Origin: Bacillus sp. ISL-37
GTDB taxonomy: Bacteria > Bacillota > Bacilli > Bacillales > Cytobacillaceae
Assembly (NCBI RefSeq): GCF_018613315.1
Contig: NZ_JAGGQL010000024.1
Span: 1 to 64,000, forward strand
Length of the DNA stretch: 64,000 nucleotides
Reading direction: 5' to 3'
Shown: piece by piece, positions 390 through 45,478 of the stretch
How positions within the stretch are numbered: position 1 is the stretch's first letter
Layout of the letters: each line of letters opens with the position of its first letter
Made by a program: the position numbers and the translations under genes
The notes under the pieces: generated by a model
What the model was told of the DNA's origin: nothing
What the model saw: the letters and a program-made list of their open reading frames with translations, nothing else
Databases searched by the model: none

Positions 390-415
390 GTTAGTTCCAT
401 TTTAAAAATGGGTAT
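390..415 (+). promoter_or_regulatory. SigmaB-like promoter upstream of the universal stress gene
   Basis: GTTAGT (390-395), a 14-nt spacer and GGGTAT (410-415) resemble the general-stress sigmaB consensus GTTTAA-N12/14-GGGTAT. The -10 is exact and the -35 matches four of six. The site is 38 nt before the start codon of a gene type that is commonly in the sigmaB regulon. It is a motif match only. Confidence 0.45.
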
Positions 416-453
416 TAAACAGTAAGACGTACTAATCTTGGAGGTTGATCTAT

Positions 454-972
454 ATGGCAGGAATAAAAAATGTGGTTCTCGCTTACGATGATTCAGCAGG
501 CAGCAAGAAAGCTCTGCAATTGGCAAAGGAGATCGCTAGAGATAAAGAAGGCGTAAAATTGTATGTTGGCCATGTATATGAGGAAAAAGTCAAAAGTGAG
601 TTGGTTGAATCAACCCAGCGCCCCATTGAGCATCTGCCCATTAACAACTTTCCGGCGGATGTTATCCAGGTGCCTCCACTGGCTATGGAACAAGGAGCAC
701 TCGATAAATCAGAGCACTCAATCATTACCCACAGCTCTGAACAAGCCTTTAACAACGCAAAGGCCGAACTGGATGCTCTTAATATGGATACTGAATACTC
801 CACCCTGGATGGAAGTCCAGCCGAGAGTATTTTAGAATTCGCCATGGATGTAGATGCTGATTTAATCATCATAGGCCAATCAGGAAATGAAGGTATCAAG
901 CGTAAAATTCTTGGCGGTGTTAGTCAAAAGGTAGCCAATAACGCTCATTGCCATGTACTCATTGCAAAATAA
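454..972 (+). CDS. UspA-family universal stress protein
   Basis: A 172-residue single-domain Usp protein, expected to be cytoplasmic and to bind ATP. The N-terminal strand IKNVVLAYDDSAGSKKAL is typical of the fold. The C-terminal GQSGNEGIKRKILGGVS matches the G-2x-G-9x-G nucleotide-binding loop of ATP-binding Usp proteins. An insert of about 40 residues after the first helix makes it slightly longer than the usual 140-150 residues. I chose ATG 454 rather than the upstream in-frame TTG 445 because GGAGG (440-444) lies 9 nt before the ATG. A sigmaB-like promoter precedes it and a strong terminator follows. The molecular target is unknown. Confidence 0.93.
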   Translation: MAGIKNVVLAYDDSAGSKKALQLAKEIARDKEGVKLYVGHVYEEKVKSELVESTQRPIEHLPINNFPADVIQVPPLAMEQGALDKSEHSIITHSSEQAFNNAKAELDALNMDTEYSTLDGSPAESILEFAMDVDADLIIIGQSGNEGIKRKILGGVSQKVANNAHCHVLIAK

Positions 973-982
973 AAGCCAAAAA

Positions 983-1017
983 CAGCCGGGCTTATGCCAC
1001 CCGGCTGTTTAATATTT
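983..1017. terminator. Bidirectional intrinsic terminator
   Basis: CAGCCGGG/CCCGGCTG hairpin between the convergent usp gene and the XRE regulator. A T-rich tract follows on the plus strand, and TTTTTGGCTTTT follows on the minus strand. Confidence 0.85.
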
Positions 1018-1045
1018 TTCGTTATTTACTGCGATCCAGACTCGC

Positions 1046-1510
1046 TTATCCCTTCAGCGCTTCAGCTGCAATCTCCTCTAACCGCTCTCTTGTTTCGTTT
1101 TCTTCAAAACTGCTGAATATCCGAAAGTCGTCTTGATCAAGAATCCTGTAATGCTGGCTCAGAATGTTTTGCTGCATGACAAATCCTCCATCTCTGGCTA
1201 CTTCCCTCCACCAGACTTTACCGCCCAATGTTTTCTCTTTTCGATAATCTGTCCCTTCATGGGCAATGGTTTCAAGGACCTCTAGTGGTTCATTGCCGAA
1301 CAAAAACTGGATTGTTTCTGTTTCCCTGAACAAGGCGCATATGGTCACAACTGTCGACCAGCCGGCTTGGACTCTGCCTTTTTCAATCTGGACAAGCGTC
1401 TTTTTGGAGATTCCGATGATATCAGCCATTTTATCCTGTGTATAACCAACTTCTGCCCGCAGCACCCTAACTTTTTCCGAGACCCTGCTAATGATTTCAT
1501 CCCTCGTCAT
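1046..1510 (-). CDS. XRE-family helix-turn-helix regulator
   Basis: A 154-residue putative DNA-binding protein. The N-terminal Cro/CI-type HTH (about residues 8-60) contains YTQDKMADIIGISKKTLVQIEKG, the classic pattern of this fold. The remaining 90 residues are charged with no recognisable ligand domain. I preferred the Met at 1508-1510, 9 nt after AAAGGA, over the Met three codons upstream, which abuts the Shine-Dalgarno. It is monocistronic and convergent with usp. Target genes cannot be read from the sequence. The protein is longer than a minimal Xre repressor, so the C-terminal part may bind an effector or dimerise. Confidence 0.85.
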   Translation of the reverse strand: MTRDEIISRVSEKVRVLRAEVGYTQDKMADIIGISKKTLVQIEKGRVQAGWSTVVTICALFRETETIQFLFGNEPLEVLETIAHEGTDYRKEKTLGGKVWWREVARDGGFVMQQNILSQHYRILDQDDFRIFSSFEENETRERLEEIAAEALKG

Positions 1511-17077: not shown

Positions 17078-17719
17078 TTAGATGGAAGCCTTTTTCCCCC
17101 ATCTATATCCAATCCAGCAAATCGGATACAATAGCGCCGTAAAAAGAATACAAATAATAATGAATATCGGGCTCAGCAGCGGCTGGAACCAGTCATACGG
17201 TATTAGCTTGAACAAAGTCAGGTTCATAAGAATGATGTTCGGCAGTATGGATAGGATAAACGTCTTTTTCATTAACCTTCTCCCTTTATGGCCAAAGCCT
17301 TTGCCTATCTCATATCCAAGCAGTGCCCAAAAGAAGAGATAAAGCAAAATGATCACAGCAGGTATCGAGGTGAGGCTTTTCCACGCCATGTCAATGAAAG
17401 GGAAATCGAAAAGATTATGTACCAGAGTCAGGATGGTACCGCCAACGAAGAAAATCAGATTGGCCAAAATGAAAACCCATTGAGTTTTCATTGGTGTCGT
17501 TGATAGTTCTTCACGCCAGCTATCCGCAATTTCTTCTGGAGTCCCCAATCTTGAATAAAGTTCCGAGCTGATATCCGCTTCATCTCTTTGTTTACCGTTA
17601 AATTCGCCCAGCATTTCTGTGATATGGCTGTCGTATTCAGCCAAAATCTGCTCTTTGTCTGGATGCTTCCCTAAATGCCTGCCAAGCTCGGTGAGGAAGT
17701 CAGTCTTTAACTGGATCAT
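17078..17719 (-). CDS. DUF1700/HAAS-domain membrane protein
   Basis: A 213-residue protein. The N-terminal helical HAAS-like domain (about 1-70, [22 protein letters not shown] then a [10 protein letters not shown] turn) is followed by four membrane segments. This family is typically encoded beside PadR regulators and is proposed to act as a membrane-bound sensor or scaffold; no enzymatic role is known. It overlaps padR by 20 nt, so translation is probably coupled. The downstream DUF4173 gene completes the module. Confidence 0.87.
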
Positions 17720-43281: not shown

Positions 43282-44670
43282 TTACGCTTCTGCTTCGATT
43301 TTTTGATTCATATCTGTATAGACCGATGAATCGATTTCTTTTGTGATTCTGCTTGTCAGGATGCCTGATGTCATCGAGCCGCTTACATTTACTGCTGTAC
43401 GTCCCATATCAATCAATGGTTCGATTGAAATCAGCAAGCCGGCAAGTGCAACTGGCAGGTTCAATGCAGAGAGCACGAGCAATGCCGCGAATGTAGCTCC
43501 GCCCCCAACACCGGCAACTCCGAAGGAACTGATGGCTACGATGGCGATCACGGTTGCGATGAATGATGGTGTCAATGGGTCAACACCAACTGATGGTGCA
43601 ATCATGACTGCGAGCATCGCAGGATAAATCCCGGCGCAGCCATTTTGCCCGATAGATAACCCGAAGGAACCGGCAAAGTTTGCAATCCCTTCTGGAACGC
43701 CAAGCGAGCGCTGTGTTTTGATATTTAATGGCAATGCCCCGGCACTCGTTCTTGAAGTGAAAGCAAACGCGAGAACAGGAAATGCTTTTTTAATATAAGT
43801 GACTGGATTTAAACCAGCAATCGTCAGTAATAACAAGTGGATAATGAACATGATTGCAAGAGCAACATATGAAGCTGCTACGAATTTACCTAGTTTTAAG
43901 ATTGCGTCGAAATCACTTAAGGCAACGGTCTTTGTCATGATGGCAAGAACTCCATATGGAGTCAGGCGCAGGATCAGCGTGACCACCCTCATGATGACCG
44001 CATAAAAAGCATCCACAATCTTGGCAAAAAGCTCTGCCTGGTCAGGAGACTTTCTTCTCACTCCAAGGTATGCGATTCCCAGGAATGCCGCGAAAATAAC
44101 AACGGATATTGTAGATGTCGGTCGTGCCCCAGTGAAGTCAAGAAATGGATTGGCTGGCAATAGATCAAGAATTTGCTGTGGCATCGTGCGCCCTTCAATT
44201 CCTCCATACGTTTCCTCAAGTTTCTCCGCACGCGCTTGCTCTGCCTCACCCTGTGTGATTTGCACAGCTTCAAGGTCAAAACCAACAGCAGTAGCGATAC
44301 CAACCGCAGCGGCAACAGCTGTTGTGCCAACCAGCAAGCCGAGAATCAGTGTACTGATTTTACCGATGTTATTCGTCAGCTTTAGCTTTGTGAAAGCAGC
44401 TAAAATCGATATAAATACTAGCGGCATAACGATCATTTGCAGGAACTTTACATAACCGCTTCCCACAATCGAGAACCAGTCAGTACTCTGAGTAATGACC
44501 TCAGATCCCGCTCCGTAAAAGAATTGCAATGCAAAACCGAATACAATCCCGATTCCCAGTGCAATGAATACTCGTTTAGAAAATGAAACATGCTTCTTTT
44601 GCATGTAAAAAAGAACAGCAATGATGCCTAGCATAACTACAATATTTAAAATAACAAGTCCAGTAGTCAC
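43282..44670 (-). CDS. tcyP: L-cystine symporter TcyP
   Basis: A 462-residue DAACS-fold transporter closest to B. subtilis TcyP (YhcL), a high-affinity cystine importer. The family-specific block AFAFTSRTSAGALPLNIKTQ replaces the SSSNATLP hairpin of glutamate carriers; SIGQNGCAGIYPAML and GVAGVGGGATFAAL are the other re-entrant regions. GTG 44668-44670 is the start, with AGGAGGG 8 nt upstream, and a good SigA promoter lies 30-60 nt further up. The gene is transcribed toward its own terminator. Next to it lies a thiol-redox gene (44878), which fits cystine reduction. Confidence 0.94.
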   Translation of the reverse strand: MTTGLVILNIVVMLGIIAVLFYMQKKHVSFSKRVFIALGIGIVFGFALQFFYGAGSEVITQSTDWFSIVGSGYVKFLQMIVMPLVFISILAAFTKLKLTNNIGKISTLILGLLVGTTAVAAAVGIATAVGFDLEAVQITQGEAEQARAEKLEETYGGIEGRTMPQQILDLLPANPFLDFTGARPTSTISVVIFAAFLGIAYLGVRRKSPDQAELFAKIVDAFYAVIMRVVTLILRLTPYGVLAIMTKTVALSDFDAILKLGKFVAASYVALAIMFIIHLLLLTIAGLNPVTYIKKAFPVLAFAFTSRTSAGALPLNIKTQRSLGVPEGIANFAGSFGLSIGQNGCAGIYPAMLAVMIAPSVGVDPLTPSFIATVIAIVAISSFGVAGVGGGATFAALLVLSALNLPVALAGLLISIEPLIDMGRTAVNVSGSMTSGILTSRITKEIDSSVYTDMNQKIEAEA

Positions 44671-44731: not shown

Positions 44732-44832
44732 CTCGGAATTAAAAATATGACCCTCCCCCATGAAAGATTTATATATTATAATTTATGAACTCCAATAAAG
44801 TTCCATGCTACTTAAAAATTTTATTTAAGAAC

Positions 44833-44860
44833 AAAAAGCCCTCACATTCGAAGGCTTTTT
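44833..44860 (-). terminator. Intrinsic terminator
   Basis: AAAAAGCC and GGCTTTTT pair around a 12-nt loop, 17 nt beyond the stop of the glutaredoxin-like gene. Confidence 0.75.
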
Positions 44861-44877
44861 GTCATTCAGTATTAAGA

Positions 44878-45153
44878 TTATAAGCTTCCAGCAAGCTCTT
44901 CAATTTCACTTCTGTTATTTTCAAATCCGATCAATACTTTTTTATCTTTCATGAACAAGAACTTTGTGCTCGTAAAAATAAACGCAGGAACAATTACAGT
45001 ACCTGTTAATTCTTTTAGCTTTTTCTCCTTTTCAGGCTCATCCTGAACATTGATTTCTTCATACGGTACATTTTTTTGCGAAAGAAACTCCTTCGCTTCC
45101 TGGCAATCCGTTCACATAGGCCGCGTGAAAAGTGTTAATGAGTTTCTGTCCAT
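44878..45153 (-). CDS. Glutaredoxin-like protein with in-frame TGA, candidate selenoprotein
   Basis: 92 codons (91 residues) in one frame, interrupted only by TGA at codon 14 (45112-45114). The sequence before it is MDRNSLTLFTRPM and after it TDCQEAKEFLSQKNVPYEEI, so TGA replaces the first Cys of the CxxC active site of a glutaredoxin fold. The rest is intact (cis-Pro loop GTVIVPAFIF) and ends at a normal TAA. GGAGG lies 7 nt before the ATG. A hairpin 15 nt after the TGA resembles a bacterial SECIS. I recall annotated UxxC glutaredoxin-like (seleno)protein families. The alternative is a nonsense mutation; selA/selB/selC are not in this window. Confidence 0.7.
45078..45096 (-). promoter_or_regulatory. 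Candidate bacterial SECIS hairpin
   Basis: On the minus strand GCGAAGG-AGTTT-CTTTCGC forms a 7-bp stem (one G.U) with a 5-nt loop whose second base is G. The loop begins 22 nt after the TGA. Bacterial SECIS models require a small hairpin with a G in the first two loop positions at about 16-37 nt, and this fits. Confidence 0.55.
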
Positions 45154-45478
45154 TCTATTGCCTCCTCTGCAGTTTTTTGTACAAATAGTATATCGCCAAG
45201 TTATGAGGGCCATCCAATAATCCGCTTGGACATCATGTAATCCAAACTTTGGATATTCATGCCTTTCCATTAGAGAAGTCATGTCGAAAAAAAGCTTTTC
45301 TTTTTATATTTAAGAACATTTCAAAAAGCAACTAGTGCGAAAAAATAGTCATGGTAAAAAAAGCAACTTGAATCAATTTTATGTTAAAGTAAAAGTAATA
45401 TATCCGAATAATTTGTCTTCTTAACGAACATATTTTTTGAATGGAGCGGTCGCTCCTTGTCGACTGGAGATTAAGACT
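45154..45478. other. Intergenic region between divergent genes
   Basis: No gene seen. It carries promoters for the glutaredoxin-like gene and the kinase. TGTCGAA (45282-45288) equals a Spo0A box, and a perfect 14-nt palindrome GGAGCGGTCGCTCC lies at about 45441-45454 just upstream of the kinase ribosome binding site. Both are short and may be chance. Confidence 0.35.

Follow-up and report, generated by a model that had tools for sequence, protein, structure and literature searches.

A predicted selenocysteine-containing glutaredoxin with an in-frame UGA and a SECIS-like hairpin in Bacillaceae

Introduction

A glutaredoxin selenoprotein in which selenocysteine (Sec, U) replaces the first cysteine of the CxxC motif was reportedly characterised by Kim et al. 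2011. The UxxC glutaredoxin is listed as a selenoprotein family in the tables of two reviews, with WP_010943784.1 as an example (PMC9312934, PMC13188914), and ten Sec glutaredoxins are counted in the passages on the Sargasso Sea set (PMC1088965). For the Bacillales, a survey from 2006 gives three selenoproteins in three families, and the passages of that survey that concern glutaredoxin name it only for Geobacter, Alkaliphilus and Moorella.

The locus described here lies in the window, a stretch of 64,000 nucleotides (64 kb) from a Bacillus sp. genome. It resembles the known UxxC selenoprotein glutaredoxin (PF00462) in belonging to the glutaredoxin family and in having Sec predicted as the first residue of CxxC, and differs in that its branch is found in Bacillaceae, in a genome with the bacillithiol synthase BshC. 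The UXX-star models (NF041212, NF041211 and NF041114) likewise describe small glutaredoxin-like selenoproteins, and NF041212 matches the protein at 48.2 bits, below its cut-off of 66; in a review table UXX-star family 1 carries UxxT and family 2 GxGU, as opposed to the UxxC found here. The nearest general models also stay below their cut-offs, GlrX_YruB (TIGR02196) with 50.7 against 88.55 bits and the NrdH-type TIGR02194 with 40.3 against 85.75 bits, so that none of the NCBIfam models exceeds its cut-off with this glutaredoxin. A "glutaredoxin family protein" of staphylococcal plasmids is 39-40% identical, approximately, over residues 1-84, but has CxxC rather than UxxC, groups with the Cys forms in the tree and stands in a copper gene context (copA/copZ). 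A literature search that covered largely what is readable outside subscription journals, in part as excerpts, returned no description of the present Bacillaceae glutaredoxin. Since the UxxC family already stands in the tables of both reviews and no NCBIfam model is exceeded, it is the Bacillaceae branch, and not the family, that is new and unannotated, and this Bacillus branch of selenium glutaredoxins looks to have been overlooked.

Our reading, to which we give a probability of about 95% on the strength of the sequence comparisons below, is that the product of the gene is a glutaredoxin-like thiol oxidoreductase with selenocysteine in a UxxC motif, and that the UGA at codon 14 would be recoded through SelB and a hairpin in the mRNA.

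The gene and its surroundings

The gene lies on the minus strand and runs from an ATG at 45153 to a TAA at 44880-44878, with 91 codons before the stop. An earlier note on this DNA, made from the letters only, had proposed a selenocysteine glutaredoxin at the correct place without giving the strand. The features are as follows.

44878..45153, minus strand: glutaredoxin coding sequence, 91 residues, with a UGA (predicted Sec) at codon 14, UxxC and a TAA stop (from sequence, homologues and predicted structure)
45112..45114, minus strand: UGA codon 14, first CxxC position (same codon in 42/44 family loci)
45078..45096, minus strand: bacterial SECIS-like hairpin, 7 bp, loop AGUUU, 22 nt past the UGA (from comparison and published rules)
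45161..45167, minus strand: ribosome binding site GAGGAGG (from sequence)
44829..44863, minus strand: stem-loop, probable intrinsic terminator (from folding energy against shuffles)
43282..44670, minus strand: SDF-family symporter (TcyP-like), context only (Pfam, 323 bits; 18/19 Mesobacillus loci)

Translation bears out that the frame is intact but for a single TGA at 45114-45112, which is codon 14 and the first Cys position of CxxC (MDRNSLTLFTRPMUTDCQ...), and when Cys is substituted for Sec the protein matches Pfam Glutaredoxin PF00462 with 55.6 bits against a cut-off of 22.9. The ribosome binding site claimed for the start is indeed present as GAGGAGG at 45167-45161, 7 nt upstream of the ATG, and, as had been remarked, the ordinary ORF list contains no full-length ORF for the gene. 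The TAA end was likewise correct; the terminator announced behind it is seen as a strong stem-loop 3′ of the TAA (-19.2 kcal/mol, equalled in none of 200 shuffles) and is absent from the list of a consensus terminator scan, and we regard it as a probable intrinsic terminator.

The closest named relatives are Mesobacillus, with 95% identity in M. selenatarsenatis SF-1 and 79-81% in M. subterraneus. The transporter encoded next to the gene falls into the SDF family of symporters (Pfam, 323 bits) and is presumably TcyP; none of the NCBIfam models passed its cut-off for this transporter. Its gene lies downstream on the same strand in 18/19 Mesobacillus loci and, across the 33 UGA loci from outside Mesobacillus, was found in none of the fetched flanks. 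The adjacency that the earlier note offered as support is thus real, but as a clue to function it was rejected, because a strong stem-loop separates the two genes and the loci outside Mesobacillus are without that neighbour in their fetched flanks.

Conservation of the in-frame UGA among homologues

The search within the family covered 193 genomes, and from it 44 subfamily loci were examined, namely those among the matches listed with at least 59 bits together with one truncated locus (L075); TGA stood at codon 14 in 42 and TGC in 2. Matches listed at 41 bits or less were set aside as presumed other glutaredoxins, an assignment made on score only, and nine further loci, presumably repeats of loci already in the set, did not enter the counts. 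Among the matches listed, the UGA gene occurs in 19/21 genomes of the genus, the two others being G079, which is 66% complete, and the near-complete G089, which has the Sec machinery and no close copy of the glutaredoxin among the matches listed. Because it is common to 19/21 genomes of the genus, the TGA is not a sequencing error of a single assembly.

An order-wide search of 397 genomes drawn from a larger group gave a match in 50. Five weak matches outside the family (E 1.6e-14 to 9.9e-13) were left out, and matches in genomes already in the counts were not added a second time; in the 38 out-of-family loci examined, the codon in question was TGA in 10 and one for Cys in 28. Together this gives 52 UGA loci in 49 genomes and 30 Cys loci in 27 genomes, all in the same alignment column, so that UGA stands where homologues have Cys, and stops elsewhere in the gene were found only in the truncated L075. 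On plasmids, 4 of 112 matching records were examined, from PLSDB tables that were incomplete, and in the three with a UGA gene the annotated gene starts past the UGA in 2 and is unlisted in 1.

Were the gene a pseudogene or a sequencing error, the TGA would have arisen by chance and the hairpin by coincidence. The interrupted frame, the missing full-length ORF and L075, a truncated copy of the gene in genome G139, are what such a reading would predict, but an identical TGA codon in 52 loci of 49 genomes, a conserved hairpin and a dN/dS of 0.086 past the TGA leave it a negligible chance.

Selenocysteine machinery of the genome

The earlier note had called for a search of the genome for the Sec machinery, and all four components were found in the source genome (4.74 Mb, 62 contigs): SelA with 479 bits (E 1.1e-143), SelB with 357.7 bits against a cut-off of 242.25, SelD with 395 bits (E 2.5e-118) and tRNA-Sec with 67.1 bits against a cut-off of 47, the last also called by ARAGORN as tRNA-SeC with anticodon tca. 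Two further genes of the genome hold in-frame UGA codons, selD itself (AGUGCK) and fdhA, for formate dehydrogenase (NRTUHAPSVAGL). In 14 well-known genomes used as a control, the SelA search was positive in 2, E. coli and M. jannaschii, and the tRNA-Sec model, which is looser, exceeded its cut-off in 5.

Full-strength SelA (E 4.3e-121 or better) is present in 48/49 genomes with the UGA form versus 12/27 genomes with the Cys form (Fisher p 8e-8, a nominal value given the relatedness of the genomes). The one genome with the UGA form that departs from this is G171, whose UGA glutaredoxin (L043, G171:C10:89098-89352) has 6/7 hairpin pairs and adjoins a P-type ATPase; no SelA match was obtained there, and the SelB and tRNA-Sec searches gave nothing over cut-off. 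This gene may be a transfer, a contamination (the assembly is listed at 5%) or a stranded gene.

Some side observations concern the machinery genes. At G000:C60:140735-141487 the source genome has another match resembling formate dehydrogenase, which also holds a single internal TGA. About 140 bp from its tRNA-Sec gene (1497-1593 of L002) lies a phage-type integrase gene (393-1361, minus strand; Pfam Phage_integrase 118.8 bits), and the tRNA-Sec gene may serve as an attachment site. One contig of G139 carries two tRNA-Sec genes over the Rfam cut-off, approximately 13 kb apart (G139:C38:3740-3834 and 17186-17278).

Selection on the protein past the UGA

Over codons 15-88 of 19 Mesobacillus genes the median dN was 0.095, the median dS 1.15 and the median dN/dS 0.086, from 162 of 170 pairs (8 pairs without a usable dS were dropped). 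The codons past the UGA are under purifying selection in Mesobacillus.

Such selection on the full-length protein does not name the inserted residue, and decoding of UGA without Sec, by general read-through or as another amino acid in this lineage, would also account for it; the UGA gene of G171, with no Sec machinery detected, fits that explanation. UGA is, however, an ordinary stop here, ending 8 of the 30 stop-to-stop frames of at least 250 codons in the window, and 8 of the 42 UGA glutaredoxin genes of the family themselves terminate in TGA. With SelA accompanying the UGA form in all genomes but one and the hairpin above chance in the UGA forms only, decoding without Sec is very improbable.

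Equally improbable is that UGA and hairpin form a selenium-responsive switch in which a short product or the transcript matters and not a Sec protein. Recoding depends on the supply of Sec-tRNA and expression would therefore track selenium, as a switch requires, but the purifying selection on codons 15-88 speaks against it, as do the Cys homologues, which are full-length and have their hairpin region at chance level. Sec insertion thus remains the preferred reading of the UGA.

The SECIS-like hairpin

The hairpin described in the earlier note agrees with the sequence: at 45096-45078 on the minus strand, a stem of GCGAAGG and CUUUCGC encloses the loop AGUUU, with 22 nt from UGA to loop. According to the legend of Fig. 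2 in PMC13188914, bacterial SECIS elements have a loop of 3-9 nt, a stem of 4-16 bp, a distance of 16-37 nt from the UGA, a G in the first two loop positions and a minimum free energy of -7.5 or lower. The present hairpin falls within these ranges whether taken as AGUUU with 7 bp or, as folded, as GUU with 8 bp, the distance being 22 or 23 nt and the energy -9.8 kcal/mol. This energy was obtained for a 31-nt piece, for which none of 200 shuffles folded as well. The fold of a 57-nt piece was less exceptional (z -1.66, 14/200 shuffles) and that of a 114-nt piece unremarkable (65/200 shuffles). The energy of a single hairpin was rejected as main proof because its value depends on the length folded, and as longer pieces fold unexceptionally it is comparison that carries the argument for the hairpin.

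Among 47 distinct UGA sequences, 96.0% of 329 pair cells were paired, and pairing fell to 32-72% when the partner strand was slid as a control. Two-sided changes were found in 18 cells, a number reached in none of 500 shuffles, and they are confined to the two basal pairs: the most basal is G-C in 33 sequences, U-A in 3, U-G in 1 and unpaired in 10, and the second C-G in 31, G-C in 8, U-A in 6 and unpaired in 2. Of the other five pairs two are invariant, two vary one-sidedly and one has an unpaired cell as its sole departure. Neither the number of pairs with a two-sided change (362/500 shuffles as high) nor the further pair types (223/500) was above shuffles.

When codons were shuffled given each protein, with the codon usage of this window applied as an approximation to all loci, the hairpin reached p≤0.05 in 49/52 UGA loci and 0/30 Cys loci. 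The mean number of hairpin pairs was 6.75 in UGA loci versus 4.22 expected, and 3.57 in Cys loci versus 3.10 expected. Within Mesobacillus the synonymous difference was 0.035 in the six hairpin codons versus 0.381 in the 67 others, none of 20000 random sets being as low. Of all six-codon windows in the gene, the one with the lowest value opens at codon 20, where the hairpin codons begin. Codons 34-35, 37 and 78-80 are likewise synonymously frozen. As judged from these sequence comparisons the hairpin is under selection as RNA. The conservation that had been asked of it is thus there, in compensatory changes at two basal pairs and in synonymous constraint, and with the machinery search and the alignment of homologues the proposal of a selenocysteine glutaredoxin has come through the sequence tests named for it and is supported.

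Changes between selenocysteine and cysteine

A tree of 79 proteins, built on 93 columns, which are few for so many rows, gave 4 changes between Sec and Cys, or 3 when only well-supported branches were considered. In one case the Cys form (L069) is nested in a Sec clade at forks with support of 96/92 and 95/89, and its genome, G050, contains SelA, SelB and tRNA-Sec. In L069 the hairpin motif survives over its first 16 nt, with pairing down to 5/7, the chance level for its codons, and a reversion from Sec to Cys that left part of the SECIS behind is the probable explanation. Passages of PMC1794560 describe such reversions with a SECIS remnant for other families. Another Cys form, L063, from a genome without SelA, was considered as a reversion and rejected, since in the tree it falls among other Cys forms.

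Fold and proposed mechanism

The predicted structure (mean pLDDT 89.6) has the order strand-helix-strand-helix-strand-strand-helix (E-H-E-H-E-E-H) of glutaredoxins. The best solved Foldseek match, also the best by sequence, was the dithiol cGrx1 of entry 7c10 (E 6.4e-5, TM 0.70/0.84), which we take to be a clostridial selenoprotein glutaredoxin. The best matches were mostly glutaredoxins and thioredoxin-like proteins, in agreement with a thioredoxin-type fold, and in an alignment of 16 sequences with Sec written as C, positions 14 and 17 (CxxC/UxxC) and V55-P56, the Val-Pro pair, were invariant.

The proposed mechanism starts from what can be read from sequence, namely the machinery, the position of the UGA, the selection past it and the selection on the hairpin as RNA. 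SelB and Sec-tRNA-Sec would recode UGA-14 under the direction of the hairpin, in which the stem starts 15 nt and the loop 22 nt past the UGA. By analogy with the known Sec glutaredoxin, Sec-14 would attack and Cys-17 would resolve, and the protein is most likely a thiol-disulfide oxidoreductase. As BshC is present in the source genome (599 bits), bacillithiol or the thioredoxin pool would be a likelier reductant than glutathione. Any role in metal stress would be conjectural and is suggested by the gene neighbours outside Mesobacillus.

Gene neighbours and a possible link to copper

These neighbours raise the alternative of a redoxin for copper handling, whose Sec or Cys would bind Cu(I) or keep thiols reduced under copper, in place of a general disulfide reductase. 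In raw counts over the fetched flanks, with ATPases taken as those similar to one representative that passes the copper-ATPase cut-off, a P-type ATPase was found near 18/33 UGA loci outside Mesobacillus and near 16/30 Cys loci; either that ATPase or a CsoR-like gene was near 21/33 UGA loci outside Mesobacillus. Since the flanks mostly extended to only about 1.5-2 kb, these counts are lower bounds. The Cys homologue of the staphylococcal plasmid has as neighbours copA, copZ, a cation transporter and the gene of a metal-sensing repressor. Against this, such neighbours occur in 0/19 Mesobacillus loci, and the representative ATPase passes the cadmium-ATPase cut-off as well as the copper-ATPase cut-off. 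A copper function is an alternative to be taken seriously, with the odds against it, and the general thiol-disulfide oxidoreductase is preferred.

More speculative still is a wider scenario in which a Bacillaceae lineage that annotation misses would use selenium in copper tolerance: a UxxC redoxin of copper-export islands would bind or release Cu(I) by its selenolate, move with islands and plasmids, and toggle between Sec and Cys, leaving SECIS fossils behind. The present reading adds a predicted selenoprotein in 19/21 genomes of the genus, among the matches listed, and in other genera of the order, and supplies, from bacteria related to each other, a naturally occurring series of one redoxin in Sec and in Cys form. 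With such a series, the choice of selenium over sulphur becomes directly testable, possibly with a copper stress assay.

The UGA genes with a copper-type P-type ATPase in their flanks are L042-L047, L049-L052, L062, L064, L066, L070, L075, L090, L118 and L119. Some of these loci also have a His-rich protein of 273 aa, for which no Pfam or NCBIfam family match was obtained, a CsoR-like repressor or a small NIR_SIR-domain protein.
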